Source of the DNA: Sheuella sp.
GTDB taxonomy: Bacteria; Pseudomonadota; Gammaproteobacteria; Burkholderiales; Burkholderiaceae_B
DNA: 64,000 bases
Reading direction: 5' to 3'
NCBI GenBank assembly: GCA_030650995.1
Contig: JAUSCY010000025.1
Coordinates: 1 to 64,000 of the forward strand
A program made the translations under genes and the position numbers. Positions 2,229 to 18,850 of the stretch are shown here, one piece after another. Under the pieces are notes generated by a model. That model was not told the DNA's origin. It saw nothing but the letters and a program-made list of their open reading frames with translations, and made no database searches. Position 1 is the first letter of the stretch; every line of letters starts with the position of its first letter.

Positions 2229-2732
2229 ATGATTTTTATGAGCCAAAGCGGGATCACCGATCCTGCAAAACACGCAGAATGGTCAGAGTGGTATGTTGAG
2301 CATCTTCGCATCATGCGAAGTGTTGACGGCATTGGCTCCGCTGAACGGTTTCAGACAACCACACCGAACTGGCCTCCCTCCCTGGCGATGTACTCAATAC
2401 GATCGGCCGAGGTGTTTGTGGATCCTTATTATTTAAAGATTCGCGGCATGGGCCCCTGGGCAGGCCTGATTGAAAAACGTTTTTATCAGCGAAATCTGTT
2501 TGAAGCAGTATCACCAGGTTCATCAACACTGATTGCGCCCGATGTACCGCCACAATCTGCCCTTGTTGTCACCGACCAGATCCAGCCACATCTTGAAATT
2601 GAAGGATTGAAGCTTCTTTGGCTCAAGTCTGTCGGTCTTGATCAATCTACTCCTTACCGGGGTATCGCTGTTATTTCAAAAAATGATATCCCGATAATCA
2701 GCAAACACCAGGAATTAGCGGTGTACCTATGA
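2229..2732 (+). CDS. EthD-like dimeric alpha/beta-barrel protein
   Basis: The 167-residue protein is not a well-defined enzyme. Its N-terminal part (DPAKHAEWSEWYVEHL, then IGSAERFQ) has the pattern of EthD/dimeric alpha-beta barrel proteins (W-x-W/E-W-Y near the N-terminus followed by S-A-x-R-F), which are small proteins often found in catabolic operons. It lies directly after the Bug gene stop and overlaps the next start by four bases (ATGA). The start may be ATG 2229 or ATG 2238; neither has a strong ribosome site. An inferred role is ligand binding or a small catalytic step for the same substrate as the two following oxidoreductases. Confidence 0.6.
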   Translation: MIFMSQSGITDPAKHAEWSEWYVEHLRIMRSVDGIGSAERFQTTTPNWPPSLAMYSIRSAEVFVDPYYLKIRGMGPWAGLIEKRFYQRNLFEAVSPGSSTLIAPDVPPQSALVVTDQIQPHLEIEGLKLLWLKSVGLDQSTPYRGIAVISKNDIPIISKHQELAVYL

Positions 2733-3784
2733 CAATGCCAAAAAAAACATTAATAGCTGGCGCAACAGGTCAGATAGGCAGCAGCGTAGGGGATTATCTT
2801 GCCAGCGCGGGTGGCTGGAATCCCGTTGGTCTGTCACGCACGCCCGATGCCAGCGCACCATATCCGATGATCGCGGTAGATTTGACGAACGCGGATGATT
2901 GCCTGAAAAAAATATCAGGACTTACAGACATTACTCACATTTTGTACGCAGCGCGTTTCGATCATTTTGGCGGAGAGCTTGAATCGAAAGATACAAATGT
3001 CGAGATGCTCAAAAATTTGCTTGATGCAATCGAGCCATCATCGAAACACTTGCAACACATCCATCTGGTTCACGGCACAAAATACTACGGCCATACGATT
3101 GCACAACGCACAGTCCCCTACAAAGAGGAGGATCAGTGCGGTAATTACAAAAGTTTTTATTTCGAACAACAATCACTAGTCGAACAACGCCAGCGCGGCA
3201 AGAATTGGTCCTGGTCCATATCGCGTCCGCATGCCTTTTGCAATTACAGAACCGATGAGCCACGCAACCTGATACTTGTTGTAGCGATCTACGCAACCAT
3301 CATGCGGGAGCTTGGCTTACCACTGATTTTCCCAGGCTCACCCTCCAGTTACCTGGCTAAAACGCAATTCTCCTGGTTACCGACACTTGCTCATGCGGCC
3401 GCCTGGATGATGCAAGAGCCAACATGTGCCAATCAAGCTTACAACGTTGTCAATGGCGACCCTAAAAGCTGGTCTGAATTGTGGCCGTTGCTGGCCAGAT
3501 ACTTTGACATGGAAGCTGGTGCTCCGGACTCCAGTTCGTTTGCACGCTTTGTTTCTAATAAAGACATGATCTGGCGTGAGATCACTGAAAAGTATGGTTT
3601 GGTAAAAACCGAATTAATGCAAGTTGCCCAATGGCCTTATGGTGACTATGTCCTGTCTGTCCAGTGGGACGTTATTTCTGACATGTCAAAAGCTCTTCGC
3701 GACGGGTTTACCGAACGCATCGACTCGGAAAAAATGTGGCTGGATGGCTTTGATTACTTTCGCGCTCAAAAAATAATTCCCTGA
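2729..3784 (+). CDS. PRISE-like SDR (progesterone 5-beta-reductase/iridoid synthase type)
   Basis: NAD(P)H-dependent oxidoreductase of 351 residues. It has an atypical SDR nucleotide loop, GATGQIG at residues 11-17, then YAARF near 73-77, GTKYYG with Lys118, and SFYFEQQ with Tyr144, followed by SWSISRPHAF. This order (Lys in a TxKxY motif, Tyr in a xFYx motif) is that of PRISE enzymes, which reduce 1,4-enones such as progesterone, or the iridoid precursor 8-oxogeranial, rather than the YxxxK layout of classical SDRs. Its gene overlaps the EthD-like gene before it and is followed by a ketosteroid-dehydrogenase-like flavoprotein, which suggests enone chemistry on a cyclic or terpenoid substrate (inference). 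Confidence 0.75.
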   Translation: MTMPKKTLIAGATGQIGSSVGDYLASAGGWNPVGLSRTPDASAPYPMIAVDLTNADDCLKKISGLTDITHILYAARFDHFGGELESKDTNVEMLKNLLDAIEPSSKHLQHIHLVHGTKYYGHTIAQRTVPYKEEDQCGNYKSFYFEQQSLVEQRQRGKNWSWSISRPHAFCNYRTDEPRNLILVVAIYATIMRELGLPLIFPGSPSSYLAKTQFSWLPTLAHAAAWMMQEPTCANQAYNVVNGDPKSWSELWPLLARYFDMEAGAPDSSSFARFVSNKDMIWREITEKYGLVKTELMQVAQWPYGDYVLSVQWDVISDMSKALRDGFTERIDSEKMWLDGFDYFRAQKIIP

Positions 3785-3796
3785 TTGGAGACAGAT

Positions 3797-5284
3797 GTGT
3801 CTAGCACCACCACTGATGTATTAGTTATTGGCGCAGGCGGCACAGGCCTTGCTGCAGCCTCAGAAGCTGCAAAACTTGGTCGTAAAGTTATATTGCTTGA
3901 AAAAAACCCTCAGACTGGCGGGTCAACTTCATGGTCTGTCGGCTCAATCACAGCAACTGGCACACCACACCAGCGAAAAGCGGGTATTGAAGATAGCACT
4001 GAAGCGCATTTTGAGGATATGGGAAAACATGCCGGAGATCTTGCTCCGCGTGACAATCTTACACTTCGCAGGATACTCGTGGAAAACACACCGGACATGA
4101 TGGATTGGCTCATGAAATTAGGCGTCGTGTTTGTCGGCCCTGAAGAAGAACCACCCCATCGCGTCGCACGCATGCACAATGTCGTGCCCAACTCCAGGTC
4201 ATTTGCCTACCATCTCACTAAACACTGCCATACCCTCGGTGTCGATATCAGACTGAACACAGCGACTCAACGCATTATTGTTCAAGACGACCGCGCAGTG
4301 GGAGTGGAAGCAACGATGCCTGATGGTTCGGCCCACACATTTTTGGCACGCCATGGCGTAGTGCTGGCCAGTGGTGATTACAGTGCAGCTAAAGACCTAA
4401 AAGCTCAGCTTGCGAATGCCGATGTCGCACTGGTTGATGCTGTCAACGAAACCGCAACCGGTGATGGTCACCGTATGGCGATATCGATTGGTGCGAGTGT
4501 TGTGAATGGAGATATCGTACGCGGTCCGATTATGCGTTTTATTGCACCGACTCGTCCCAATATTTTGCAAAAACTCCCGCCTGCAACGTGGATAGCCAAA
4601 ATGATTGCGTGGTCGGCTAATGTTTTACCGCAGTGGGTACTCAGGCCATTTCTAATGAGCTTTCTGACCACTGCCGTCAGCCCTTCCATGGATCTGTATA
4701 AAGAAGGCAGCATTCTGATCAATAAAAATGGTGAGCGGTTTACCGACGAACTTGGAAAACCTAACAAAGATATGGCCAAGCAACCTGAGCGTGTGGGTTG
4801 GGTGATGTTTGACCAGCAGGTTGCACAGAAATTTTCGGCGTGGCCGTATTACATCTCTACCGCACCCGGTGTGGCCTATGCCTATCTGGATGACTATCGT
4901 CGCAACCGTCCGGATATTTTTCATCAGTTTGATTCAATCGCCGGACTAGCTGACAGCATGGGGGTTGACCCAGAGACACTCACGCATACGATTACCACTT
5001 ACAACGCCTCACAGCGCGGCGTCAGACCTGCTATCGATCACGGCCCCTACTACGCGCTGGGGCCAATCAAAAGCTACGTTGTATTCACGGATGGCGGCCT
5101 GAAAATCACCGATCGCCTGGAGGTCATCCGTCATGACGGTAGTCTGATCAAGGGTTTATATGCCGCAGGCTCTGTCGGTCAGGGTGGATTACTTCTTGAA
5201 GGCCATGGCCACCATTTGGGCTGGGCTTTTGTCTCCGGACGTATTGCAGGACGCTACGCCGCACAGTTTGAACCTGCGGCGTAG
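3797..5284 (+). CDS. FAD-dependent oxidoreductase (fumarate reductase/3-ketosteroid dehydrogenase-like)
   Basis: Flavoprotein of 495 residues. The N-terminus has the dinucleotide loop VIGAGGTGLAAASEAAKLG with GGSTSWSVG close behind, and the C-terminus has GLYAAGSVGQGG and GWAFVSGRIAG, the two FAD-contact blocks shared by fumarate reductase flavoproteins and 3-ketosteroid-delta1-dehydrogenases. I place the start at GTG 3797 because GGAG at 3787-3790 sits six bases before it; a TTG at 3785 is in frame but overlies that ribosome site. It is the last gene of the Bug/EthD/PRISE set and would add or remove a double bond next to a carbonyl or carboxylate. The substrate is unknown. Confidence 0.82.
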   Translation: MSSTTTDVLVIGAGGTGLAAASEAAKLGRKVILLEKNPQTGGSTSWSVGSITATGTPHQRKAGIEDSTEAHFEDMGKHAGDLAPRDNLTLRRILVENTPDMMDWLMKLGVVFVGPEEEPPHRVARMHNVVPNSRSFAYHLTKHCHTLGVDIRLNTATQRIIVQDDRAVGVEATMPDGSAHTFLARHGVVLASGDYSAAKDLKAQLANADVALVDAVNETATGDGHRMAISIGASVVNGDIVRGPIMRFIAPTRPNILQKLPPATWIAKMIAWSANVLPQWVLRPFLMSFLTTAVSPSMDLYKEGSILINKNGERFTDELGKPNKDMAKQPERVGWVMFDQQVAQKFSAWPYYISTAPGVAYAYLDDYRRNRPDIFHQFDSIAGLADSMGVDPETLTHTITTYNASQRGVRPAIDHGPYYALGPIKSYVVFTDGGLKITDRLEVIRHDGSLIKGLYAAGSVGQGGLLLEGHGHHLGWAFVSGRIAGRYAAQFEPAA

Positions 5285-5310
5285 TTGAACTCAAACCTCA
5301 GGTGCCTGAC

Positions 5311-6294
5311 TTAATCGTCAGCCTTGATGTTTGCCGACTTAACAACCTGCGCCCATTTATTCATATCCGTTTTGACGAATGCAGCAAAGTCAGCCTCGGT
5401 CGTAATGGTGGGCACTAAACCCTGTTTTGAGAGATTGGCAACAGTTTCTGGCTGACTAAACACCTCGAGAGCTGCCTGATGTATTTTGTTGCGAACATCC
5501 GCGGGAGTCCCTGCGGGTGCAACTAATCCATACCAGTAATCCATGTCAAAACCTCTGATGCCAGACTCAACAAAAGTCGGTACATCAGGCATTGCGGGTG
5601 AGCGCTGCTTACCTGTCACCGCCACAGCCTTGAGCTGACCACCCCGTACCAGGCCAGCAATCGAGGGGAGCGGGGCAAACATGATCATGTCTTTTTGTGA
5701 ACCGAGCATATCAGCAGCCACTGCTCCGGTCCCTTTGTATGGAACATGAGTCAACTTGATTTGGGTCGCGTAAATAAATAATTCTGCAGCCATATGCGCA
5801 CCACTGCCCGTACCTGCAGAACCAAAATTGATTTTTCCTGGATTTGCTTTGGCCTGAGAAACCAGATCCCCTGCGGTCTGGACAGAGGAAGTCGGACTGA
5901 CGACTAGAACCATCGGGGCAGCCGCCAAGGCAGTAACAGGGACAAAATCACGATCAACGTTGTAGGGCAGTTTAGGATAGATACTGGGATTGATTCCTAT
6001 TTCTGATACAGAACCAACCATGAGCGTTTTTCCGTCCGGTGCTGCGCGGGCCGTAAATTGAGCCCCAATTGCACCCGCTGCGCCAGAACGATTTTCAATT
6101 ACAGCAACTGTTCCAAGCTTTTCGGCGATTTTAGGCATGGTCATTCGTGCCAATACATCCGTTCCACCGCCCGGTGCAAACGGAATCACGATTGACAAGG
6201 GCCGATCGCCCGAAGACTGGCCATGAGCGGGGCTCATCACCAGGGAGGTAAACGTTACGGCACTCATAAATATTGTTGAAAAAACAGATTTCAA
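5311..6294 (-). CDS. Bug/TctC-family periplasmic receptor
   Basis: Receptor of 327 residues with a signal peptide ending near residue 26 (SPAHG-QS). The ligand loop is PFAPGGGTDVLARM and the hinge block is LTHVPYKGTGAVAADMLG, but the usual GGQ/GGE after it reads GSQKD, so its binding pocket differs from its paralogs. It converges on the flavoprotein gene (26 bases between stops) and is divergent from the CoA-transferase at 6438, so it may share a control region with the catabolic operon and feed it. Confidence 0.92.
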   Translation of the reverse strand: MKSVFSTIFMSAVTFTSLVMSPAHGQSSGDRPLSIVIPFAPGGGTDVLARMTMPKIAEKLGTVAVIENRSGAAGAIGAQFTARAAPDGKTLMVGSVSEIGINPSIYPKLPYNVDRDFVPVTALAAAPMVLVVSPTSSVQTAGDLVSQAKANPGKINFGSAGTGSGAHMAAELFIYATQIKLTHVPYKGTGAVAADMLGSQKDMIMFAPLPSIAGLVRGGQLKAVAVTGKQRSPAMPDVPTFVESGIRGFDMDYWYGLVAPAGTPADVRNKIHQAALEVFSQPETVANLSKQGLVPTITTEADFAAFVKTDMNKWAQVVKSANIKADD

Positions 6295-6437
6295 AATTGT
6301 CTCCTTACTTATTATTTTTTATCAGATACCTATATTACAGACTGGCGGTCGATAATGAATCAGTCAGATCACTTTGCATAGAGATATTTGGAGTGTATTC
6401 TCATCTTTCTAGAGACAAAACATACAAAAACTAAGAC

Positions 6438-7673
6438 ATGCTTCCTTACGAAAAATTGCCTCATGTTCAGGCAACAGCAGGCTTTTCACATCTTGAAGGA
6501 ATCCGGGTACTGGATTTAAGTACTTCAGTTGCCGGACCGTATGCAACGCAGTTGCTTGCTGATTTTGGGGCGACTGTCCTCAAAATAGAAAAAATAGAGG
6601 GTGGCGATGACGCACGCCAGTGGGGACCACCCTTTTTAAATGGTGCTTCGCTCTGGTTTCTCAGTGTGAACCGTAACAAACACAGCATGGCACTTGATGT
6701 CAGTCAGCCTGAGGGACGAGAAATCCTGATGTCCCTGCTAGAAACCACTGATGTACTGGTCGTGAATATGACACCGCGCGTGCAGACCAAACTTGGTCTG
6801 GATTATGCAAAGCTAGAACAAAAATTTCCACGTCTGATTCACGCATCGCTCACAGGTTTCGGCTTGACCGGTAGCCGGGCTGACCATCCATGTTATGACC
6901 TGATTTCTGAGGGCTATTCTGGCATCATGGACTTAACGGGTGAGCTTGAGAGCGATCCGCAGAAAGTCGGCACACCTGCCGCAGACATGCTGGCGGGACA
7001 AGACCTCGCTATGGCTGCACTGGCAGCGATTAACGGCCGAAACAAAACTGACAAGGGGTGCTGCATTGATGTCTCCATGCACGCCACCATGTCGCGCTTT
7101 ACTGCGCCGCGCGTTGTTGCCTACCTTGGATCTGGGGAGGTTCCACGCAGATCGGGCGGGCGCGACTCTGTGATCGCGATTTACCAAGTCTTCAACGCCT
7201 CGGATGCCCAGTTGTCACTCGGGTTGGGAAACGATGCCATCTGGAAAAGATTCTGGGAAACAGTGGGTGATATTGCATTTGGACAAACACCTGCATACGC
7301 AAACAATGCCGGCAGACGAGAACATCGGCCTGCAATCGTTGCACGCATTTCTGAAATCCTGAAATCACGAACGCGCGATCAATGGCTAGAGTTATTTGCC
7401 ATGAACCGCATCCCAGCCGGCCCGATCAATCGTGTAGACGAAGTCGTTGCCGATCAGGACTTACTGGATAAAGAGTTTTTCTATACAAGTGACTCGGCTT
7501 ACGGCCCAATCCCTCAAGTAGGCCTGGGTATTCAAATCGACGGGCAGCAGCGTGTGCACAGAAAATCACCACCCAAACTTGGCGAAGACACTCAAGTCGT
7601 ACTCAAGGACTGGCTTAACATGTCCGATACTGACATTGAAAAACTTCAACAATCCGGAATAGTGAATCGATAG
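6438..7673 (+). CDS. CaiB/BaiF family CoA-transferase
   Basis: Type III CoA-transferase of 411 residues that moves CoA between carboxylic acids through an aspartyl intermediate. Visible are the N-terminal block IRVLDLSTSVAGPYATQLLA, LKIEKIEGGDD, the LTGFGLTG turn near residue 140, and the probable catalytic Asp183 in AADMLAG. It opens the operon running to about 16935 and would activate the imported acid, or exchange CoA with a product acid. The ribosome site is weak and the 143 bases upstream are shared with the divergent Bug gene, so this is the likely promoter region of the whole operon. Confidence 0.93.
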   Translation: MLPYEKLPHVQATAGFSHLEGIRVLDLSTSVAGPYATQLLADFGATVLKIEKIEGGDDARQWGPPFLNGASLWFLSVNRNKHSMALDVSQPEGREILMSLLETTDVLVVNMTPRVQTKLGLDYAKLEQKFPRLIHASLTGFGLTGSRADHPCYDLISEGYSGIMDLTGELESDPQKVGTPAADMLAGQDLAMAALAAINGRNKTDKGCCIDVSMHATMSRFTAPRVVAYLGSGEVPRRSGGRDSVIAIYQVFNASDAQLSLGLGNDAIWKRFWETVGDIAFGQTPAYANNAGRREHRPAIVARISEILKSRTRDQWLELFAMNRIPAGPINRVDEVVADQDLLDKEFFYTSDSAYGPIPQVGLGIQIDGQQRVHRKSPPKLGEDTQVVLKDWLNMSDTDIEKLQQSGIVNR

Positions 7674-7738
7674 CATTTAGAAATAATGCTCGCGAATGAC
7701 TGACCGCTTATATTTGTACAGAAAGCACTGGAGACCTC

Positions 7739-8518
7739 ATGCAATTTGAAGAAATTATTTACGAAGAAGATGGTCCGATCGGCACCATCACATTGAATCG
7801 TCCTCAGGACGGTAATATGTTTACTGAAAAAATGTGTCATGAAATCCGTGATTGCATCAACGCAATCCGCCGTGAAACACGTACCCGCGTCATTGTGCTG
7901 ACGGGCGCAGGAGATCGTTTCTTTTGTCTGGGCGGGCGCAAAGACGGTATGGAAGATACCCAGATGTATGCAGGGGTGCTGCCTACACTTGAAATGTATG
8001 AGAGCATCGATCGCTTGCAAAAACCAGTCATTGCATCAGTCAACGGCTACGCTGTGGGCGGTGGAAACGTATTACAGATGGTGTGCGATGTCACTATCGC
8101 AGCAGACAACGCGATGTTTCGACAGGTAGGTCCGATGGTGGGCAGCTTCGATGCCGGATATGGCACGTGGTATCTGGAGGACCTCGTAGGCAAGAAGCGG
8201 GCGAAAGAGATGTGGTTCTCAAACCCAAAAATCTCACCCCAGCAAGCAGTCGATATGGGTCTGATCAATCGTGTCGTGCCTGCAGCTGAATTAAAAGCAG
8301 CGACACGCGAATGGGCACTTGAAATCGCTGATCGTGGCTCCTTCGCACTCGCATCAATCAAATCTGCTTTCAATGCACGCCACGGCGGCGTAGGTGGTCT
8401 CTCGCGTATGGCGCATGATTTGTTGTTGCGCGGCTATCTCGATACGGAAGAACATGATGAAATGGCCGCCTCCTTTGCAGAGCGGCGCAAACCTGATTCA
8501 TCCAAGTTTGGCCACTGA
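7739..8518 (+). CDS. Crotonase-fold enzyme of the BadI/MenB type
   Basis: Crotonase-family enzyme of 259 residues. It lacks both glutamates of enoyl-CoA hydratases: the oxyanion loop reads GYAVGGGNVLQMVCD (residues 103-117) and the second site reads QVGPMVGSFDAGYGT, with Asp138. That GSxDxGYG block, together with the MQFEEIIYE start and the GGGNVL loop, is what I remember of 2-ketocyclohexanecarboxyl-CoA hydrolase (BadI) and naphthoate synthase (MenB). The BadI reaction is hydrolytic ring opening of a cyclic beta-keto acyl-CoA. GGAG precedes the ATG. It lies between a CoA-transferase and an acyl-CoA ligase. An ordinary hydratase role is unlikely; assignment to BadI rather than another member of this subfamily is inference. 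Confidence 0.8.
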   Translation: MQFEEIIYEEDGPIGTITLNRPQDGNMFTEKMCHEIRDCINAIRRETRTRVIVLTGAGDRFFCLGGRKDGMEDTQMYAGVLPTLEMYESIDRLQKPVIASVNGYAVGGGNVLQMVCDVTIAADNAMFRQVGPMVGSFDAGYGTWYLEDLVGKKRAKEMWFSNPKISPQQAVDMGLINRVVPAAELKAATREWALEIADRGSFALASIKSAFNARHGGVGGLSRMAHDLLLRGYLDTEEHDEMAASFAERRKPDSSKFGH

Positions 8519-8533
8519 TCAAAGGATTTGATC

Positions 8534-10222
8534 ATGATGCTGACCTTGCATGATCCAAAAAAAACACGTGAACAATATTCAAGTGGTGCCTGGCAACAGG
8601 ACACCATGTTCATGCTGTTGCGCGAGAACGCCCGCAATAAAGGCGATGTTGTTGCTCTACGTGACGCAACAACTTCCCTGACCTGGAACGAGGTGCTTCA
8701 AGCAGTAGAGGGTGTGGCACAAAGCCTGCACATCGCAGGTCTGCGTGAAGGTGATCGCGTAGCAATCTGGCTGCCAAGTCGTGTTGAGAGTGTAATTATT
8801 TTTCTTGCCTGTTCACGCAACGGCTATGTATGCTGCCCTTCCCTGCACCAGAGTTACACCGCGGCTGAAATCATCACATTACTCAAACGCATCCGTTGCA
8901 AGGCATTTTTTACGATGCCCGCCTATGGAGCCGATGCAGCCAAGACTTCTATTTTCAACCTTGTTCAGGACGTCCCTACGCTAATTAATACCTACGCGCT
9001 TGGAGATAATTTCAATCATAATCAGGCGTGCCAGATTCCTGATACGCATCAATTTCCAAAACCTCTTGCAAGCTCTGTGGACATGCCTCCACCTGACTTG
9101 AATCCCGATAAAATTGTCTATCTGGCATTTACTTCAGGTACAACTGGCTTGCCCAAAGGCGTCATGCACAGTGACAACACCTTGCTTGCCAATGGCCGTG
9201 TGCTTGTCAAGGACTGGCACCATAACGAATTCAGTGTGCTCTTGACACTCAGTCCTCTCAGCCACCATATAGGAACGGTTGGGGTCGAGCAATGGCTAGT
9301 CGCAGGTATGCAATTAGTTATACACAACCCCGCCGCAGGCATTGCTGCCCTGGACTTGATTATCGATACCCATGCGACCTATGTGATGGGTGTTCCAACC
9401 CACGCGATGGATATTCTCGATGAGTTTCGCCGTCGAGGCCTGACGGCAATGGGCAAAGTCAAATCGTTTTATATGGCAGGGTCTCCCATTCCTCAGGAGG
9501 TTGCGGAACAATTTCTGCGCATTGGAATCACCCCGCAAAATGTCTACGGCATGACTGAAAATGGTTCTCATCAGTACACCTTGCCAACAGATCCAACACA
9601 GACCATTGTCTCGACGTGTGGACGCAGCGGGATGGGTTACGAAGTCCGGATCTTTGACGCCGAAAATTCCGATAAGGAACAAGCTGTTGGTGAAGTAGGT
9701 GAGATTGGTGGTCGGGGTGGATTGTTGATGCTGGGATATTTTGACGACCAAACAGCAACAGAAAACTCGTTTAACCGTAGTGGCTGGTTTATGACCGGTG
9801 ACCTCGGTGTGCTGGACCAACAGAACTGCCTCCAGATTGTGGGTCGGAAAAAAGATCTGATTATCCGCGGTGGACACAACATTCATCCTGCGCACATCGA
9901 AGATCTCGCGCATCGCCATACGGATATCGCCAAAGCCGCAGCATTCCCGATTGCTGACGATCGGCTCGGGGAGCGTGTTTGCCTGGCGATTATTCAGCGC
10001 CCCGGATCCAATGCAGGCGAAACACTCACAGCGAGCGAAGTCTTGATGCATCTGCACGTGATTGGCTTATCCAAATACGATATGCCCGAGTACTTTATTG
10101 TGATGGATCAGTTTCCTCTGACCGCAAGCGGAAAAATCCTAAAACGTGATCTGGTATTGATGGCTCAGCGCGGTGAAATTACTCCCGAGGCCGTACGCTT
10201 TAAAGCGACGCAAACGCAATGA
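8534..10222 (+). CDS. AMP-dependent acyl-CoA ligase (AliA/CaiC-like)
   Basis: ATP-using acid:CoA ligase of 562 residues. It carries the phosphate loop FTSGTTGLPKGVMH near residue 200, the GWFMTGDLG block, GRKKDLIIRGGHNIHP near residue 436, and the C-terminal catalytic lysine in ASGKILKRD near residue 531. The start is taken as ATG 8534, seven bases after AAAGGA; a TTG two codons upstream is less likely. It is 15 bases after the BadI-like gene and 16 before a hydratase. Its overall pattern resembles cyclohexanecarboxylate and carnitine/crotonobetaine ligases, so it probably makes the entry CoA ester of the pathway. Confidence 0.92.
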   Translation: MMLTLHDPKKTREQYSSGAWQQDTMFMLLRENARNKGDVVALRDATTSLTWNEVLQAVEGVAQSLHIAGLREGDRVAIWLPSRVESVIIFLACSRNGYVCCPSLHQSYTAAEIITLLKRIRCKAFFTMPAYGADAAKTSIFNLVQDVPTLINTYALGDNFNHNQACQIPDTHQFPKPLASSVDMPPPDLNPDKIVYLAFTSGTTGLPKGVMHSDNTLLANGRVLVKDWHHNEFSVLLTLSPLSHHIGTVGVEQWLVAGMQLVIHNPAAGIAALDLIIDTHATYVMGVPTHAMDILDEFRRRGLTAMGKVKSFYMAGSPIPQEVAEQFLRIGITPQNVYGMTENGSHQYTLPTDPTQTIVSTCGRSGMGYEVRIFDAENSDKEQAVGEVGEIGGRGGLLMLGYFDDQTATENSFNRSGWFMTGDLGVLDQQNCLQIVGRKKDLIIRGGHNIHPAHIEDLAHRHTDIAKAAAFPIADDRLGERVCLAIIQRPGSNAGETLTASEVLMHLHVIGLSKYDMPEYFIVMDQFPLTASGKILKRDLVLMAQRGEITPEAVRFKATQTQ

Positions 10223-10238
10223 ATAAGGAGAAATAACG

Positions 10239-11021
10239 ATGAGCGTTGAGCTTTCGATTGAAAATGGGCTGGCCCACATCAAACTGAATCGCCCTAAGGC
10301 GCTCAATGCGCTGAGCTTTACGATTCTGGGCGAACTTGATGCAGTAATTGATCAGGTATCACAAGCCGTGAAGAACAAAACTGTTCGGGGTTTGATTTTT
10401 ACAGGAGAAGGTGAAAAATCATTTTGTGCTGGCGCAGACATCACAGAACTCATGGACCGGTCCGTATTACAAGAGCACGAGGGAGCAAGAATCGGTCAGG
10501 CCGTATTTTCAAAAATAGCCTCGCTGGCCATTCCTTCTGTTGCCGTTATTCATGGTTATGCCTTCGGCGGCGGACTCGAACTCGCACTCGCATGCACATT
10601 CCGCGTAGCAACGGCACGCGCCAAGATGGGGTTGCCTGAAGTCAAGCTCGGTCTGATTCCTGGTTATGGTGGCACGCAGAGGTTACCGCGACTCGTTGGT
10701 GAGGGGCGTGCGCTGGATATCATCATGTCAGGCCGAACAGTCGATGCTGAAGAAGCTGAGCGGATCGGTCTTGTGAATCGCATCGTTGCAGATGCTGATC
10801 CTGTCACGATTGGCCAGGACTTCCTCGCACCATACCTCAAGCACAGCCTTGCCGCACTGGACTTCGCTCGCCAGGCCGTCACCAGGGGGTTGAATACAAC
10901 GCTGTCTGAAGGGTTACGTATCGAGCGGGACCTATCAACTCTCGCCTACCAGACTGCTGATGCAAAAGAAGGCATGAACGCCTTTGTTGAAAAACGTCCT
11001 GCACAGTTCAAAGATCACTAG
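10239..11021 (+). CDS. Enoyl-CoA hydratase (BadK-like role)
   Basis: Crotonase of 260 residues with both catalytic glutamates: Glu114 in GGGLELALAC and Glu134 in GLPEVKLGLIPGYGGTQRL. It should therefore hydrate a 2-enoyl-CoA to a 3-hydroxyacyl-CoA. A strong AAGGAG lies before the ATG. In the proposed ring-acid pathway it would hydrate a cyclohex-1-ene-carboxyl-CoA type intermediate, or act again on the opened dicarboxylyl-CoA. The gene belongs to the operon by spacing and direction. Confidence 0.93.
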   Translation: MSVELSIENGLAHIKLNRPKALNALSFTILGELDAVIDQVSQAVKNKTVRGLIFTGEGEKSFCAGADITELMDRSVLQEHEGARIGQAVFSKIASLAIPSVAVIHGYAFGGGLELALACTFRVATARAKMGLPEVKLGLIPGYGGTQRLPRLVGEGRALDIIMSGRTVDAEEAERIGLVNRIVADADPVTIGQDFLAPYLKHSLAALDFARQAVTRGLNTTLSEGLRIERDLSTLAYQTADAKEGMNAFVEKRPAQFKDH

Positions 11022-11064
11022 ACCAGACACTTATTATCGTTTCAATCACTTCTGATAAATAAAT

Positions 11065-11838
11065 ATGCAAATCAATCCAACATCTGACGCACCATCAAAA
11101 GGCTGCATCATCGTCACAGGCGCCAGTCGTGGCATAGGCGCAAGGATTGCACTGGGCTTAGCTCGCGCAGGTTTCGACGTCGGTTGTCTTTCCCGATCTG
11201 GTGACTTACCTCATATTGAGCAAGTGAGCCCGGAAATCAAAAAGCGCTGGCATCCCGCTAAGTGCGATGTCAGTCAAAGCGCACAGCTAGAACAGGCATT
11301 CCATCATATCGCTCAGCAATCAGGCAAACCCCTTGTCGGCTTAGTCAACAATGCCGGTATCCATTCGCAGGGTCGTATAGAAGCCATCACGCAGGAGGAG
11401 TTCAGGCGTGTGATGGATGTTAATACCTATTCGGTTCTGGCTGCGAGTCAGGCCATCTATCCGCACCTGCTAAATAATCAAGGTGGATTGATCGTCAATA
11501 TCGGCTCATTTTTTGACAAGCTTGGTATCAAGCAGCACTTACTTTACTGTTCAGCCAAAGCTGCAGTAGGCGCAATGACACGCTGCATGGCTGTTGAGTG
11601 GGCATCCAAAGGCATTCGCGCACTGAACGTTGCGCCTGGCTATATCATGACCGACCTGAATCGGGATGCCATGCAAACCGGACCACTCGCTGATTATCTC
11701 GCCAAGCGCATACCCGGAGGAAAACCTGGGCAGGCCGAGGATGTCGGCAATCTTGTGACCTCACTATTTGTACTTGACTCTCCATTCATGACCGGCGAAA
11801 CCATCTATATCGATGGCGCGCACGGCATGCTGGGTTAG
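11065..11838 (+). CDS. SDR-family 3-hydroxyacyl-CoA dehydrogenase/FabG-like oxidoreductase
   Basis: Classical short-chain dehydrogenase of 257 residues: TGASRGIG at 18-25, NNAG at 95-98, Asn120, Ser148 (NIGS), Tyr161 and Lys165 (YCSAK), then NVAPGYIMTDL. All four catalytic residues are present. In the operon it would oxidise the ring-hydroxyl of a hydroxyacyl-CoA, as BadH does in cyclohexanecarboxylate breakdown; the sequence alone does not distinguish this from other FabG-like enzymes. There is no clear ribosome site. A 43-base gap separates it from the hydratase and 11 bases from the next gene. Confidence 0.88.
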   Translation: MQINPTSDAPSKGCIIVTGASRGIGARIALGLARAGFDVGCLSRSGDLPHIEQVSPEIKKRWHPAKCDVSQSAQLEQAFHHIAQQSGKPLVGLVNNAGIHSQGRIEAITQEEFRRVMDVNTYSVLAASQAIYPHLLNNQGGLIVNIGSFFDKLGIKQHLLYCSAKAAVGAMTRCMAVEWASKGIRALNVAPGYIMTDLNRDAMQTGPLADYLAKRIPGGKPGQAEDVGNLVTSLFVLDSPFMTGETIYIDGAHGMLG

Positions 11839-11849
11839 AAGGAACTGAC

Positions 11850-13025
11850 ATGCATGTATTAAATCGACTCGACGCCGATCAAAAATGGTCTCAGGAAGAG
11901 ACCATGCTGCTTGACTCGGTACGTCAGTTAGCAAGAGAAAAAATCGCCCCACGCGCCGCGCATTATGACCAGACCGCCGAATTCCCTTGGGATAACGTCA
12001 AGGCGATTAATGAACTCGGTCTGAACACGATGTTCATTCCCGAGGAATATGGCGGCGCGCCACTCTCCTATGCGTGCTATCTGGCCTGTGTCCGTGAAAT
12101 CAGTCAGGCTTGCGCCTCTACGGGGATTATCTGGGCGACTAATTTCCACGCCATCAAACCACTGATGGACTATGGCAATGCGGAGCAAAAGCAACGCCTG
12201 TTACCTCGCATCGCAGAGGGTGGTTTAGCCGCCCTAGTGATCACTGAACCGAGTGCAGGTTCAGATGCAACAGGTATGAAAACCACTTTTACACCGGAGG
12301 GTGATTCGATCATCCTCAATGGCAGCAAGATTTTTATATCCAATGGGGATGTATCGGACCTGTATGTGGTGTTTGGAAAGTGGTCAGAAATTGAAGGTGC
12401 AAAGGAATCCATCTCTGCCCTGATTCTTGAAAAAAACACTCCGGGCTTTACGGTCACAGGTGTTGAAGACAAGATGGGAACAAGAGCATCGGGCACTGCT
12501 TCGCTTTCTTTTGATAACTGCCGTATCCCGCGTGCCAACCTCTTATGTAATCCTGGCGATGGCTTAAAAATATTATTAGCCTCGCTCAACAAGTCACGTC
12601 CGAGTGTCGCTGCCCACGCGCTGGGCATTGCCCGCGCCGCATTTGAAGATGCGATCGGATATATGAATGAACGCAAACAATCAGGTAAAAAATTGCTTGA
12701 ATTTCAGGGTTTGCAATTTAATATCGCAGATCTTGCCGCAGAACTTGTTATGGTCGAATCCTGGCTCTGGCGTGTCGCAAAGATGGTTGATGATAATGTC
12801 ACCGATATCGGTATCGAAGCCTCTATCCTGAAACTTAAAGCGACAGACCTGGCTATGCGCATGGCCACCGATGCGGTGCAGTTTCTTGGCGGCTATGGCT
12901 ACTGCAAAGATTATCGCGTCGAACGCTTAATGCGCGACGCAAAAATTACACAAATATGGGAAGGTACCAATCAAGTTCACCGTCAACTGATTGGTCGCAG
13001 TTTTTTGAAAAAGGATAAGAGATGA
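11850..13025 (+). CDS. Acyl-CoA dehydrogenase (AliB/CaiA-like)
   Basis: FAD-dependent acyl-CoA dehydrogenase of 391 residues. It has the substrate/FAD block ALVITEPSAGSDATGMKT, FLGGYGYCKDYRVERLMRDAKITQI, and the catalytic Glu371 in WEGTNQVHR. It introduces the alpha-beta double bond in an acyl-CoA and passes electrons to ETF. AGAAGGA precedes the ATG. The stop overlaps the next start (ATGA). It completes the dehydrogenate-hydrate-dehydrogenate-cleave set needed for ring acid or side-chain beta-oxidation in this operon. Confidence 0.94.
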   Translation: MHVLNRLDADQKWSQEETMLLDSVRQLAREKIAPRAAHYDQTAEFPWDNVKAINELGLNTMFIPEEYGGAPLSYACYLACVREISQACASTGIIWATNFHAIKPLMDYGNAEQKQRLLPRIAEGGLAALVITEPSAGSDATGMKTTFTPEGDSIILNGSKIFISNGDVSDLYVVFGKWSEIEGAKESISALILEKNTPGFTVTGVEDKMGTRASGTASLSFDNCRIPRANLLCNPGDGLKILLASLNKSRPSVAAHALGIARAAFEDAIGYMNERKQSGKKLLEFQGLQFNIADLAAELVMVESWLWRVAKMVDDNVTDIGIEASILKLKATDLAMRMATDAVQFLGGYGYCKDYRVERLMRDAKITQIWEGTNQVHRQLIGRSFLKKDKR

Positions 13026-13897
13026 ACCACAGCAAAACAATCGGTATCGTCGGCTGTGGCACCATGGGGACCGGGATCGCCATCGTCGCTGCGCGCGCTG
13101 GCTTTAAAACGCGCATTTATGACCTGCGCCCCGAACCTCTGGAAAACGCACGCAAACAGGCGGCAGCATTTCTTAAAAAATCAGTCGAACGCGGCAAACT
13201 TGCTGCCGGTGAAGACGCGCTCATCATGTCGCAGTTCCTGACAACAACTGAAATCCGTGACTTCGCAGATTGTGATCTGGTGATTGAGGCAGTTTTTGAG
13301 GATCTGAAAGTCAAACATAGCATTTTTAAGCAACTCAACGAAGTCTGTCACGCAGAAACGATCTTTGCCTCCAACACGTCTACGATATCAATTACAGAAA
13401 TCGCTGGCGGAAGTGGTCGCGCAGACCGGTTTGTCGGCATGCATTTTTGTTTGCCCGCCCAGCTCATGAAACTGGTAGAAATGTCGCCAGGAATGAATAC
13501 ATCCGAGGCGACATTCGACAAAGCCTGGAAACTCTGCGAAGACATGGGTCAGCGCCCTGTGCGCACGCGTGATACCCCCGGCTTTATCCTCAATTACTTT
13601 CTGATCCCCTTCCATAACGACGTCATCAACATGGTCGATCAGGGCGTTGCCTCCCCCGCCGATATTGACCTGGCCGTCAAAACAGCACTAGGCTACCCAC
13701 TGGGTCCACTTGAACTGCTGGATATGGTTGGAATGGATACGCAGCTTTTACTTTGCGAAGCCATGCATGGTCTGACCCACGAGCCCAGAGCGGCCTGCCC
13801 GCCTCTGGTCAAGCGCATGATCGGCGCGGGGCGACTCGGACGCAAATCAGGTCAGGGGTTTCACACCTATGACAGTAATAAAATTTTTGGAGCATGA
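13022..13897 (+). CDS. 3-hydroxyacyl-CoA dehydrogenase, N-terminal PaaH-like half
   Basis: NAD-dependent 3-hydroxyacyl-CoA dehydrogenase of 291 residues. It has GxGxxG at 11-16, SNTS near 117-120, the catalytic His141 with Glu153 (MKLVEM), and Asn190 in RDTPGFILN. The usual HFFNP around the catalytic histidine reads HFCLP here. The length is that of a 3-hydroxybutyryl-CoA dehydrogenase. Its gene overlaps the next by four bases, and that next gene encodes what in PaaH-type enzymes is the C-terminal half of the same chain, so the pair probably forms one two-subunit enzyme acting on a longer or dicarboxylyl 3-hydroxyacyl-CoA. Confidence 0.9.
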   Translation: MNHSKTIGIVGCGTMGTGIAIVAARAGFKTRIYDLRPEPLENARKQAAAFLKKSVERGKLAAGEDALIMSQFLTTTEIRDFADCDLVIEAVFEDLKVKHSIFKQLNEVCHAETIFASNTSTISITEIAGGSGRADRFVGMHFCLPAQLMKLVEMSPGMNTSEATFDKAWKLCEDMGQRPVRTRDTPGFILNYFLIPFHNDVINMVDQGVASPADIDLAVKTALGYPLGPLELLDMVGMDTQLLLCEAMHGLTHEPRAACPPLVKRMIGAGRLGRKSGQGFHTYDSNKIFGA

Positions 13898-14565
13898 TCA
13901 TGGGTTATCAGATTATTCAAGCTGACGCATCACGTTCATTTCCCGATCCACATGCGTTTTTTGACAACGCGAGCAAAGACGGTGCAGGGCTGATTTTTAT
14001 CGGACAAGAAGCTGGCGCGGCCTTTGAGGAGTCAATGGACCAAACGGCAGACGCATCTTTTGTCGCGATTGAACTAGGCACTGAATGCCTGGGTGTCCAC
14101 ATCGATCAAGACTACGGTCCTGAAAACGTTGTGGGTTTTGCAAGGTTTCGTCTCGGTGATGACGCCCCCACCAAACTCGTTGAATTAGTCCGGATGCCCT
14201 TCACGACAGAAAAGGCGCTGGCTGCTGCACGTGCATGTTTTGAATCGGCAGGATTGGTGGTTTCTGTCTGCGGTGACTTTCCCGGACGCATTCTGGATCG
14301 ACTCATCCGTCCCTATTACAACGCGGCACTGCGCAGGCTCGATGAAGGTCTGGCATCGGCAAATGATATGGATTTAACGCTACGTCTCGGACTCGGCTAT
14401 CCAGACGGTCCGATTGCTTTATTGAATCGTACAGGTTTGCATCACCACTACGAAGTGACTCAAGACCTTTTTGAACAGCTTGGTCAGGAGCCCTATGCGC
14501 CTGCACGTCGTGCGCGTAATGCCTGGATCAAACACAATCAGGAAAACGACGATGCAGCCACTTAA
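13894..14565 (+). CDS. C-terminal 3HCDH-domain protein (split PaaH partner)
   Basis: A 223-residue protein with no nucleotide-binding GxGxxG. Residues 1-120 look like the reduced Rossmann-like domain placed between the two helical domains of PaaH-type enzymes (KLVELVRMPFTTEKAL near 92-107), and residues 128-200 form a 3HCDH helical domain (GDFPGRILDRLIRPYYNAA, LGYPDGPIALLN). It cannot bind NAD alone. Starts ATG 13894 (overlapping the previous stop) or ATG 13900 are both possible. It probably assembles with the preceding dehydrogenase; a separate dimerising or regulatory role is the alternative. Confidence 0.78.
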   Translation: MIMGYQIIQADASRSFPDPHAFFDNASKDGAGLIFIGQEAGAAFEESMDQTADASFVAIELGTECLGVHIDQDYGPENVVGFARFRLGDDAPTKLVELVRMPFTTEKALAAARACFESAGLVVSVCGDFPGRILDRLIRPYYNAALRRLDEGLASANDMDLTLRLGLGYPDGPIALLNRTGLHHHYEVTQDLFEQLGQEPYAPARRARNAWIKHNQENDDAAT

Positions 14566-15664
14566 AGGCATCAAGGTTCTGGATTTCAGCACACTGCTTC
14601 CAGGACCAATGTGTAGCTTGATGCTGGCTGACGCTGGCGCAGAAGTCATCAAAATAGAGCGCAGCGCAGGAGATGAGATGCGCGCCTATATCCCGAAATT
14701 CGGGGCAGACAGTGTCAATTTCGCTCTTCTGAATCGCGGTAAGAAATCAGTTGTGGCCGATCTCAAATCACCTGGCATCATCAAGCTGATCGAGTCCCTG
14801 GTGATGCAAGCAGATGTTCTGGTTGAGCAGTTTCGTCCTGGCGTCATGGACAGGCTTGGACTTGGGTACGAGAAGCTTTCAAAACTAAATCCGCGTCTGA
14901 TCTACTGTTCCATTACGGGCTATGGTCAGACAGGGCCTTACTCACAGATTGCAGCACACGACCTGAATTACCAGGCTCAAACCGGGATGCTCAATCTGAC
15001 GGGAGATGACAGAGGTAAACCGGCATTACCACCGATGCTCACTGCAGATCTGGCGGGTGGTGCCTACCCTGCCATCATGAATATCCTGCTGGGCTTGCGC
15101 AAACGGGATCACTCAGGTGCCGGTTGTCATATTGATGTCTCTATGTCGGACAATCTCTTTACATTGATGTATTGGGGCTTGGGTAACGGCTGGACCGCTA
15201 ATCAATGGCCAACGCCAGGCAGTGATCTTGTAACCGGTGGGAGCCCACGCTACCAGATTTATCAGACTGCAGATAATAAATATCTGGCATGCGCGCCGAT
15301 TGAAGAGAAATTCTGGGCTAATTTTCTATCCGTCATCGGCGCAGTTGAACTGCACCATGAAAAAAACACCGCCCTGGTCAAAGCCAGCATCGCCAAAATT
15401 ATTGCAGGACAGACTGCAGCCTATTGGATGGAACGCTTCGGTGCTCTTGATACGTGTGTCTCTGAGATAGTTGGACTTGAGCAAGCTGTAACAGATCCTC
15501 ATTTTCAAGCCAGAGGGATTTTTGACCGAAGTATTTCCACAGCGCAAGGCGATCACATCACAGCTCTGCCAACAGCTGTGAGTAAAGTTTTCCTGGCAAA
15601 AGAGAAAGTCGATTCAAGCCCGAATCTGGGCCAGCACACAAAAGATTTTTTACAAAAAACCTGA
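14552..15664 (+). CDS. CaiB/BaiF family CoA-transferase
   Basis: Second type III CoA-transferase of the operon (370 residues). The N-terminal block is IKVLDFSTLLPGPMCSLMLA, followed by ITGYGQTGPY and the probable catalytic Asp166 in TADLAGG. The chosen ATG 14552 overlaps the end of the preceding gene by 14 bases and aligns with the family's usual N-terminus; an upstream in-frame start would add 27 unrelated residues. With the transferase at 6438 and the ligase at 8534 the operon has three ways to load CoA, which suggests CoA recycling from an end product to incoming substrate, or two substrates. Confidence 0.92.
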   Translation: MQPLKGIKVLDFSTLLPGPMCSLMLADAGAEVIKIERSAGDEMRAYIPKFGADSVNFALLNRGKKSVVADLKSPGIIKLIESLVMQADVLVEQFRPGVMDRLGLGYEKLSKLNPRLIYCSITGYGQTGPYSQIAAHDLNYQAQTGMLNLTGDDRGKPALPPMLTADLAGGAYPAIMNILLGLRKRDHSGAGCHIDVSMSDNLFTLMYWGLGNGWTANQWPTPGSDLVTGGSPRYQIYQTADNKYLACAPIEEKFWANFLSVIGAVELHHEKNTALVKASIAKIIAGQTAAYWMERFGALDTCVSEIVGLEQAVTDPHFQARGIFDRSISTAQGDHITALPTAVSKVFLAKEKVDSSPNLGQHTKDFLQKT

Positions 15665-15720
15665 CCATTTAATACCCGATTGATCATAAATAATCAGAAT
15701 ATTCATTAACGGAGCAAACT

Positions 15721-16935
15721 ATGAAACTCAAACTCACCTCACTCGCAGCGCTATCGCTCACTGCGTTATTTGCATCATGCGCCCACGCTCAGGCGAACAA
15801 ACCTGTCCGTATTGGTGCACTGGTAGATATGTCTGGCATTTACTCGGCCCATGGTGGCCCGGGAATGGTGACCGCGGTCAATATGGCAATAGAAGACTTT
15901 GGTGGAAAAGTCCTTGGTCGACCGATCGAAGTACTCTCTGCGAACTATCAAAATAAAGTTGATATCGCATCTGCGCGTGCGCGTGAGTGGTATGACCGCG
16001 ACGACGTCGATATGATTATCGAATCTACCGACTCTGCAGCCTCCCTTGCTCTGCAGCGTATTGGTGTGGAGAAAAAGAAAATTACGATTTTTGCTGGTTC
16101 AGCAACCTCAACGCTGACAAATGCGGAGTGTTCGCCATATGGCATTCACTATGTATATGACACCTACGCCTTGTCACACGGCACAGGCATTGCAGTGACA
16201 AAAGCAGGTGGAGACAGCTGGTTCTTTATCACTGCAGACTATGCCTTTGGTCAGGCACTCGAAAAAGACACGGCAGAAGTAGTCAAACAAAATAACGGCA
16301 AAGTGATTGGTTCGGTCCGCGCTCCACTCAACACACCCGACTTCTCTTCATTCCTGTTACAGGCGCAAGCATCCAAAGCTAAAGTCGTTGGACTGGCCAA
16401 TGCTGGAACAGATACCCAGAACTCAGTACGTCAAGCCAATGAGTTCGGCATCACCCAGGGTGGCCAGAAGCTCGTGACTTTGCTCGTGTTTTTACACGAC
16501 ATCAAAGGTCTTGGACTGAAAGCCGCGCAAGGTCTTCAATTTACAGATGGTTTTTACTGGGACTATAACGACGATACGCGCGCGTTTGCTAACAAGTTTT
16601 ACGCTCGACATAAAGGCATGCCCTCCATGGTGCAGGCAGGCGCTTACTCTGCAACCATGCACTACCTGAAAGCTATTGCAGCTGCCGGCTCAACCGATGC
16701 GGACGCTGTCGCAGCAAAAATGAAAGATACCCCCATTAACGATTTTTTTGCCAAGAACGGCAAAATCCGTGCAGATGGACGGATGGTGCATGACATGTAT
16801 CTCGCAGAAGCCAAAAAGCCATCTGAATCAAAAGGCGAATGGGATTTACTGAAAATCAATGCAGTCATTCCTGGCGACGAAGCATTTCGTCCGCTATCAG
16901 AAAGCGTTTGTCCTTTAGTTAAAAAACCAGGCTGA
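15721..16935 (+). CDS. ABC transporter substrate-binding protein (LivK-like, type 1)
   Basis: Periplasmic binding protein of 404 residues of the branched-chain amino acid/aromatic acid class. A signal peptide ends near AHA-QA (residue 24), the core starts VRIGALVDMSGIYS, and SADSA-like blocks (ESTDSAASLA) and FAGSATSTLTNAECSPY follow. Family members bind amino acids, amides or aromatic and alicyclic acids. It ends the operon, with a good ribosome site (CGGAG), but no LivHMGF permease or ATPase genes are present in the window, so it is an orphan that must borrow a permease. A stem-loop follows at 16951-16990. Confidence 0.9.
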   Translation: MKLKLTSLAALSLTALFASCAHAQANKPVRIGALVDMSGIYSAHGGPGMVTAVNMAIEDFGGKVLGRPIEVLSANYQNKVDIASARAREWYDRDDVDMIIESTDSAASLALQRIGVEKKKITIFAGSATSTLTNAECSPYGIHYVYDTYALSHGTGIAVTKAGGDSWFFITADYAFGQALEKDTAEVVKQNNGKVIGSVRAPLNTPDFSSFLLQAQASKAKVVGLANAGTDTQNSVRQANEFGITQGGQKLVTLLVFLHDIKGLGLKAAQGLQFTDGFYWDYNDDTRAFANKFYARHKGMPSMVQAGAYSATMHYLKAIAAAGSTDADAVAAKMKDTPINDFFAKNGKIRADGRMVHDMYLAEAKKPSESKGEWDLLKINAVIPGDEAFRPLSESVCPLVKKPG

Positions 16936-16950
16936 GATAGTCATCTCGAA

Positions 16951-16990
16951 AGCCACATTCCTGCGTGCCCTATGCACTGGAATGTGGTTT
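16951..16990 (+). terminator. Stem-loop after the catabolic operon
   Basis: CCACATTCC at 16953-16961 pairs with GGAATGTGG at 16979-16987, with an inner GTGC/GCAC stem, followed by a short TTT. It lies 15 bases after the stop of the binding-protein gene. The weak T-run makes it a possible rather than certain terminator. Confidence 0.55.
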
Positions 16991-17027
16991 AAAACCGGCA
17001 ATATATAAAAATTAATAAAGAGACATC

Positions 17028-17996
17028 ATGAAAAAATTTGTATCAAAACTACTTTTATTTACCACGCTGATCGCACCTGGCATTGCTTTAAGCGCGGATC
17101 CCTGGCCAAGTAAACCGATTCGTATTGTGGTGACTTTTGCGCCTGGCGGCACCTCTGACGTGCTATCCAGAGCGATTGCGCCAGAGCTGTCGAAAGCGCT
17201 GGGCGTACCCGTTGTTGTCGTCAACAAGCCTGGAGCCAACAGTATCATTGGCACGCAGGAAGTCGCGAAATCCGCACCTGATGGCTACACCATCGGCCTG
17301 TTCATCAGCGCCCATTCAATTAATCCTTATATCAATAAGAATTTACCTTACGACTCAAAAAAGGATTTCATCCCTCTTGCGATGCTGGCACTCATGCCCG
17401 GACTATTAACAGTCAATCCAGGTGTGCCGGTAAAGAATGTACAGGAGCTGATTGCGCTCGCCAAAGAAAAGCCAGGCACGCTTGCATACGGCACGCCTGG
17501 TGGACTGACCTCAGGCCAGCTATCCATGCAATATCTCATCAAACTGGCTGGCGTGAACATCACAGAAATTTCATATAAGGGCGGTGGCCCTGCGCTGGCA
17601 GACTTACTGGCGGGTCACATTCAGATGCTGATCAATAGCCCGACGTCAACGATCCCTCACGTTCGATCGGATAAGCTGCGGGCGCTAGCCACAACCGGCG
17701 CTAAAAGGCCTGCCGCACTGGCCGATATTCCTACGATAGCGGAGTCCGGTTTTCCTGGCTTCGAATTGTATGAGTGGTATGCATTGTTCCTGCCTGCAGG
17801 AACTCCTCAAGATATCGTGACACACTTGCACAAGGAGGTCATGAGCGTCATGGCCTCACCTGCGATGGTTAAACGCATTGCCGATATCGGAGCAGAAAGC
17901 AGCACCGATACACCTGAACAATTCGCGAAGTTTGTCGAAAAAGAAGATCAGGTATGGAGCAAAATCATTAAAGAAATCGGTGTGCGTCCAGAGTAA
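17028..17996 (+). CDS. Bug/TctC-family periplasmic receptor
   Basis: Receptor of 322 residues with signal peptide to about residue 23 (ALSA-DP). Ligand loop TFAPGGTSDVLSRA; hinge block ISYKGGGPALADLLAGHIQM, in which the usual V-P-Y-K-G reads I-S-Y-K-G. AAAGAGA precedes the ATG. It lies 92 bases after the operon and beyond a stem-loop, so it may be a separately expressed receptor for the same substrate. It converges on the SDR at 17998 with one base between the stops. Confidence 0.92.
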   Translation: MKKFVSKLLLFTTLIAPGIALSADPWPSKPIRIVVTFAPGGTSDVLSRAIAPELSKALGVPVVVVNKPGANSIIGTQEVAKSAPDGYTIGLFISAHSINPYINKNLPYDSKKDFIPLAMLALMPGLLTVNPGVPVKNVQELIALAKEKPGTLAYGTPGGLTSGQLSMQYLIKLAGVNITEISYKGGGPALADLLAGHIQMLINSPTSTIPHVRSDKLRALATTGAKRPAALADIPTIAESGFPGFELYEWYALFLPAGTPQDIVTHLHKEVMSVMASPAMVKRIADIGAESSTDTPEQFAKFVEKEDQVWSKIIKEIGVRPE

Positions 17997-17997
17997 A

Positions 17998-18762: not shown

Positions 18763-18850
18763 TGTCGCGCCATTCCTTGATATTCAATTGTTATATGCAA
18801 TCACAGATCAGGCCTGCTGATCTACGTTCACTTTATCATTCGGCGAGCAT

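Follow-up and report, generated by a model that had tools for sequence, protein, structure and literature searches.

A widespread CoA-dependent operon in Sheuella sp., predicted to open a carbocyclic acid

The stretch of DNA analysed here, referred to as the window, comprises 64,000 nucleotides from Sheuella sp. (assembly GCA_030650995.1, contig JAUSCY010000025.1, positions 1 to 64,000), the host draft genome being 3.13 Mb. Positions 6438-16935 hold ten co-directional genes, A to J, encoding nine enzymes (A-I) and a binding protein (J). It is fairly likely that this operon constitutes an oxygen-independent, coenzyme A (CoA)-dependent upper pathway which opens a carbocyclic acid other than plain cyclohexanecarboxylate. 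Gene content, gene order, conservation, motifs and promoter pattern were observed directly, and the reactions are predicted from protein family and gene order. In the open-access full-text literature, subscription literature lying outside the search, no paper recognisable as describing the operon was found.

Gene content and the predicted route

The genes are as follows.

A, 6438..7673 (+): type III CoA-transferase of the CaiB family, 411 amino acids (PF02515 373.2 bits, cut-off 23.3)
B, 7739..8518 (+): crotonase of the MenB/BadI group (third clade), proposed to be a ring hydrolase, 259 amino acids, with S136, D138 and Y233
C, 8528..10222 (+): AMP-forming acyl-CoA ligase (PF00501 222 bits; AliA model 243 bits, cut-off 792.3)
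D, 10239..11021 (+): enoyl-CoA hydratase with both Glu regions (PF00378 200 bits)
E, 11065..11838 (+): short-chain dehydrogenase/reductase (SDR), proposed ring 2-hydroxyacyl-CoA dehydrogenase (PF13561 178 bits)
F, 11850..13025 (+): acyl-CoA dehydrogenase (PF00441, PF02771, PF02770)
G, 13022..13897 (+): 3-hydroxyacyl-CoA dehydrogenase, N-terminal part of a PaaH-type protein (PF02737 and PF00725; NF006124 profile 5-290 of 507)
H, 13894..14565 (+): C-terminal part of a PaaH-type protein (PF00725; NF006124 profile 325-495 of 507)
I, 14552..15664 (+): second type III CoA-transferase with the Asp motif, open reading frame listed from 14471, ATG at 14552 (PF02515 322.6 bits, cut-off 23.3)
J, 15721..16935 (+): periplasmic binding protein, Peripla_BP_6, branched-chain amino acid ATP-binding cassette type (PF13458 355 bits; PDB entry 3i09 448.9 bits)

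The first-pass annotation had described nine co-directional genes; direction and coordinates were borne out, but there are ten genes when both dehydrogenase halves and J are counted, and small overlaps occur. The successive gaps are 65, 9, 16, 43, 11, -4, -4, -14 (-17 if I is counted from 14549) and 56 bases. Pfam and NCBIfam searches agree on the class of each enzyme A-I, and the classes named at first pass (two CoA-transferases, ligase, hydratase, SDR and dehydrogenases) hold. The families likewise support the proposal of a CoA-dependent pathway that combines a ring-hydrolase-type crotonase with the enzyme classes of the cyclohexanecarboxylate route. Catalytic motifs were located by pattern search of the window proteins, with patterns that we take to be characteristic of these enzymes. 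The Asp motif (AAD/TAD) was found in both A and I, whose type III membership is clear, TSGTTGLPKG in C, both Glu regions in D, YxxxK in E and the EGT Glu in F; G carries the Rossmann and HFxxP motifs and H neither. The start of C is listed as TTG, ATG at 8534 or 8537 being possible too, and no PDB relative of this ligase was found at an E-value of 1e-50.

In the proposed route, the ring acid would be taken up by J and activated with CoA by C, while A or I would recover CoA from a product. F would carry out alpha,beta-desaturation of the ring, D would hydrate the double bond and E would oxidise the alcohol to a cyclic beta-ketoacyl-CoA. B would then open the ring hydrolytically, in a retro-Dieckmann-type reaction at a site composed of Ser136, Asp138 and Tyr233. 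After hydrolysis CoA would still sit on the original carboxylate, the newly formed one being free, so that the presence of two CoA-transferases makes sense; the one not used for recycling would move CoA to the new carboxylate. Beta-oxidation of the dicarboxylate could be carried out by F or another dehydrogenase, D and G/H, with thiolysis by an unlinked PcaF-type thiolase.

Enzyme B and the known ring-opening systems

B has the look of the MenB/BadI group and is a member of neither family; in this catabolic setting it is probably a hydrolase. Its scores lie below the NCBIfam cut-offs for MenB (NF005637 253.2 bits, cut-off 380; TIGR01929 224.8, cut-off 342.7) and for the BadI equivalog TIGR03210 (216.6, cut-off 467.6), the latter being exceeded by a match in 8 of the 398 genomes sampled from the phylum. 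In a maximum-likelihood tree of 55 rows, B, its relatives and a 51% identical Rhodococcus homologue formed a clade of 13 with support 100/99, beside a MenB group (11 rows, 100/100) and a BadI group (23 rows, only 74/59); the branching order of the three is left unsettled by the tree. The earlier description of the 7739 protein as BadI/MenB-like thus stands as to the group, but B is not BadI and belongs to a third clade. A place among the hydratases had been named beforehand as a result that would speak against ring opening, and the B clade was found apart from the eight hydratase-type rows, D included.

In the alignment, S136 and D138 of B are in register with Ser138 and Asp140 of BadI, whose positions were confirmed on the aligned BadI. 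Y233 is invariant and stands beside a one-residue insertion; HMMER aligns it to the MenB Tyr, and MAFFT places it one column off (BadI Tyr235). Ser138, Asp140 and Tyr235 are presumably the catalytic residues of BadI/MenB. On comparing the AlphaFold model of B with the PDB by Foldseek, the first 40 rows were MenB, followed by hydratases and further MenB chains. MenB (1,4-dihydroxy-2-naphthoyl-CoA synthase) resembles B in fold and in its Ser, Asp and Tyr residues; in contrast to B, which stands in another clade among catabolic genes, it makes a ring in menaquinone synthesis. A MenB or menaquinone role was rejected, as B lies outside the MenB clade. Identity as a steroid C/D-ring hydrolase was also dropped, since no such model occurs among the best 25 of 72 NCBIfam matches to B; estrogen clusters with BadI-like genes do exist according to excerpts of two papers (PMC7793797, PMC12507874).

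The bad-ali systems of Rhodopseudomonas and Aromatoleum CIB share with the operon a separate ligase, acyl-CoA dehydrogenase, hydratase, SDR and MenB-group ring hydrolase. It is nevertheless unlikely that the operon is a divergent bad-ali pathway acting on cyclohexanecarboxylate itself. The enzyme classes are indeed those of AliA, AliB, BadK, BadH and BadI, as set out in the excerpted part of PMC9795900, but the protein-by-protein comparison with AliA, AliB and BadI advised at first pass did not bring the two together: C, F and B all lie below the equivalog cut-offs (AliA 243 of 792.3 bits, AliB 165.7 of 575.35, BadI 216.6 of 467.6), and B is outside the BadI clade. F also scored below the models for AcrC (354 of 640) and cyclohexane-1-carbonyl-CoA dehydrogenase (308 of 650), and no BadH model is among the best 25 of 226 NCBIfam matches to E. 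Two CoA-transferases, a split PaaH and another gene order further set the operon apart. Among its relatives a sigma54 activator and promoter occur in place of the MarR repressor BadR; Gram-negative bad-ali clusters are described in the same excerpt as having a MarR repressor with, mostly, a CAAN4TTG operator (PMC9795900). The BadR operator CAATNNATTG was absent from window positions 1-20000, and CAAN4TTG from 6295-6437. Two genomes, G227 and G248, carry a member of the B clade together with a 42-44% relative, BadI-type by identity only as both lie outside the tree; in G227 the latter is adjoined by an acyl-CoA dehydrogenase, a ligase and an SDR homologue. True BadI identity of B and bad-ali membership were rejected on the cut-offs, the separate clade and the lack of a BadR site. 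Four BadI-type genes of the same bacterial family (42-46% identity, in the BadI group of the tree) have neighbouring C, D and F homologues only 25-40% identical to those of the window.

Conservation and regulation of the operon

The operon is widespread and is no local invention. A relative of B at an E-value of 1e-40 was found in 55 of 268 genomes of the bacterial family; in 29 of these, made up of 20 of the genus's 32 genomes and 9 of the remaining 236, it has at least 69% identity, and the other 26 have only 36-46% relatives. A scan of species genomes gave 360 confirmed stretches encoding a B relative, some genomes having two copies. The best 80, with 78-98% identity to B, are the named loci; their titles name Burkholderiales, Hyphomicrobiales, Rhodobacterales, Sphingomonadales, Azospirillum and a few others. 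The closest named relatives of the window among them are Zwartia and Jezberella, which place it in the Alcaligenaceae; both are members of the freshwater GKS98/betIII cluster according to an excerpt of PMC10535154. Four metagenome-assembled loci (L070, L076, L081, L112), with B relatives of 81-93%, bear the titles Bordetella parapertussis or Klebsiella pneumoniae, which look like placeholders.

Conserved synteny was confirmed. Among 89 loci (the window, the 80 named loci and eight plasmid loci), all nine enzymes were found in 42, of which 38 are collinear; matches were counted at 44% identity or more, 70% coverage and on the + strand, and many of the 47 that dropped out are short contigs. As gene order is kept in other genera, the operon is beyond chance. 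In the 44 loci longer than 19,000 bases (tblastn E-value 1e-15, 45% query coverage, at least 45% identity anywhere in the locus), A was present in 36, C in 38, D and E in 40 each, F, G and H in 39 each and I in 32; the accessory genes were a NADPH:quinone-type oxidoreductase N (20), the sigma54 activator R (21), J (14) and a full PaaH, M (8). Clustering of open reading frames across loci was noisy, with shadow frames in loci rich in G and C. A was found adjoining B in relatives at 51-92% identity. The pairwise divergence of B follows that of each of the other eight enzymes (Mantel r 0.78-0.88, a level reached by none of 500 permutations), and B is the slowest-evolving enzyme of the operon, with a mean identity of 0.81 against 0.57-0.72 for the others.

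Plasmid copies are present in Achromobacter, Paraburkholderia, Cupriavidus, Burkholderia, Aminobacter, Salipiger, Celeribacter and Ancylobacter, the last with rearranged order. On a plasmid of Burkholderia multivorans the set is limited to the regulator R, A-I and N, with a major facilitator superfamily transporter on one side and unrelated genes around (its gene table is incomplete); this bare set makes the operon look self-sufficient. In locus L189 (G248:C149), the D-E-F block occurs twice, about 10 kb apart, with B beside the first copy only. L192 (Sphingomonas sp. JE1 plasmid pJE1) and L193 (Neorhizobium petrolearium) have F at 66% and 56% and a B relative of only 42%, and are possibly sister pathways. 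On plasmid pROB02 of Rhodococcus opacus B4 (L064, 7133-14774), a 51% B relative adjoins CoA-transferases and two 3-hydroxyacyl-CoA dehydrogenases, near biphenyl genes.

Several observations weigh against ring opening by B. The chief one is the operon of G254, a genome of the same genus, where locus L196 (G254:C135, 6897-18393) keeps the operon and the sigma54 activator with B cleanly missing between A and C; the genome contains no relative of B at an E-value of 1e-40. The Paraburkholderia xenovorans LB400 locus has A, B, D, G, H and M but lacks close counterparts of C, E, F and I. Because B guided the choice of the 80 named loci, the counts describe the company of B and not its frequency in such operons. 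The tree tool warned of long branches for the B clade and MenB, and the fixed differences of B from both BadI and MenB include R128, K68, W144 and D148; such group-specific changes could mean another reaction. The AlphaFold model of B is mediocre (mean predicted local distance difference test score, pLDDT, 66.9, with low-confidence loops), and S136, D138 and Y233 fall in stretches with a pLDDT below 50.

These points bear on a reading in which the operon serves beta-oxidation of a branched or linear acid, B being a hydratase, isomerase or thioesterase and no ring being opened. Most of the enzymes are generic, G254 retains the rest of the operon without B, and G/H together with PcaF fit dicarboxylic beta-oxidation; yet the operon already has a hydratase in D, which carries both Glu regions, and no enzyme in it is more conserved than B, where the MenB/BadI residues are retained. 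This explanation is improbable, and opening of a carbocyclic acid is preferred.

Roughly half of the long relative loci have a sigma54 activator, usually divergent, by which the operon is probably switched on. Each of the 23 intergenic regions that could be extracted between a divergent regulator and A (40-600 bases long, those with a repeated first 60 bases being left out) carries a -24/-12 element with a score of 9 or 10 out of 10 for TGGCAC-N5-TTGC. The element stands 45-81 bases before A, in one region 138, and the mean null fraction is 0.003; the regions are not all independent, since three of one Achromobacter-type genus share a site and two from Pandoraea are near-identical. Of five activators scanned, four gave a weak PAS match, over the cut-off in two. 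The window operon is without this activator and its promoter: no -24/-12 element occurs in 6295-6437, and the best matches to the activator in the window genome have 40-46% identity, confined to the ATPase and C-terminal part.

Linked enone module, lower pathway and other features

Three genes lie upstream of the operon.

2229..2732 (+): EthD-like protein with an EWYxEHL motif, family named by eye, kept with the PRISE and flavin adenine dinucleotide (FAD) genes
2729..3784 (+): PRISE-type enone reductase (PF22917 72.2 bits, above the cut-off of 27; progesterone 5-beta-reductase 5mlh, 9.4e-46)
3785..5284 (+): FAD dehydrogenase/reductase of the flavocytochrome c, urocanate reductase and ketosteroid dehydrogenase group (PF00890 180.7 bits)

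The earlier call of enone-type neighbours at 2729-5284 agrees with these Pfam and PDB matches, and the 2729 protein also matches iridoid synthase in the PDB. No Pfam match was found for the 2229 protein, and its model (mean pLDDT 62.2) gave no fold match at an E-value of 0.001. The three genes and those for two Bug-type binding proteins make up a module that much of the genus retains; it stands beside the operon in the window, L041, L043, L184 and L191, and elsewhere in Zwartia hollandica (L182, L183). Of the 20 genus genomes with B, 16 have the FAD gene, against 3 of the 12 without B (p 0.0035, ignoring kinship), and the counts for a strong PRISE match are the same; one of the three is G254, which has the operon without B. 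Outside the genus, Cupriavidus has a PRISE gene (41% identity) immediately upstream of the operon, and Ancylobacter and G227 have an FAD gene (47-48% identity) close to it, with a DUF4286-like neighbour. As phmmer gave no link between the 2229 protein and the DUF4286-like proteins of Cupriavidus or Ancylobacter, their kinship rests on the motif seen by eye. PRISE genes occur in 60 of the 268 family genomes, and because they are uncommon, their repeated neighbourhood with the operon is unlikely to be chance. The products of the FAD and PRISE genes probably tune the oxidation state of a ring enone that would feed the route. Quinate/shikimate reduction was considered because a type II dehydroquinase adjoins the operon in Cupriavidus, and was dropped as nothing further supports it.

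A terpenoid is one possible substrate, the linked PRISE/FAD module being the only argument for it. Cleavage of a perillate-type monoterpene ring after the manner of the mrc cluster of Castellaniella defragrans is very unlikely. That cluster, also from Alcaligenaceae, combines hydratase, dehydrogenase and ring hydrolase; the reaction logic is that of MrcF, MrcD and MrcE as described in an excerpt of PMC4109377, and a PRISE enone reductase is linked here. However, MrcE is BadI-like and the companion genes are others, as compared by description, and by that paper's statement MrcE is 88% identical to Azoarcus BadI, against 40-46% between B and BadI-group proteins (PMC4109377).

The claim that thiolase is lacking is correct for the contig, where no match was found, but two full type II thiolases are encoded elsewhere in the window genome. 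The one on contig C83, near genes for exonuclease VII and a Clp ATPase, passes the PcaF equivalog model (697.9 bits, cut-off 597). A PcaF equivalog (724.7) is also present near the operon in Paraburkholderia fungorum, and across the 89 loci a type II thiolase is near in six (three PcaF-type, three of an Aminobacter type) and an SCP2-type thiolase in nine. The phenylacetate lower pathway (PaaH/PaaJ, with PcaF) is similar in having a PaaH-type dehydrogenase, split here, and a PcaF thiolase, here in trans; it differs in that the operon is without oxygenase or epoxide chemistry. It is weakly suggested that beta-oxidation ends at 3-oxoadipyl-CoA, in which case the opened chain would be even-numbered. 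With a PcaF-type thiolase and PaaH-type enzymes accompanying the operon, an even-numbered chain may be formed, and this would point to a five-membered ring.

A wider proposal is put forward tentatively and regarded as rather doubtful: that the operon represents a widespread proteobacterial pathway, sigma54-regulated in many hosts, which opens the rings of functionalised alicyclic acids, cyclohexanecarboxylate excepted, by means of a separate third branch of the MenB/BadI hydrolases, the chain being maybe even-numbered and the ring five-membered. Candidates may include acids of the cyclopentane-carboxylate type (iridoid-like or oxo-cyclopentane acids, for example) or the alicyclic carboxyl-rich fraction of the organic matter of lakes. 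According to an excerpt of a 2015 paper, cyclopentane carboxylic acid had been addressed by no metabolic study (PMC4591350). Identification of the substrate would account for the mineralisation of a class of alicyclic acids by common bacteria of soil and fresh water, which is relevant to natural dissolved organic matter and naphthenic acids, and would yield a new ring-opening enzyme.

Other features of the window were also recorded. A second small CoA cluster at 35999-39157 consists of a zinc-type reductase, another crotonase and another type III CoA-transferase. At 31968-33674 (-), an open reading frame of 568 amino acids matches APS/PAPS reductase over residues 37-243 (293 bits, cut-off 154) and CysD over residues 256-568 (476 bits, cut-off 413), an apparent CysH-CysD fusion, followed by a CysN-like GTPase at 30595-31968 (-). 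By eye, about nine Bug/TctC-like binding proteins are encoded in the 64 kb, at 1257, 5311, 17028, 18967, 27227, 53271, 55273, 57422 and 60372.

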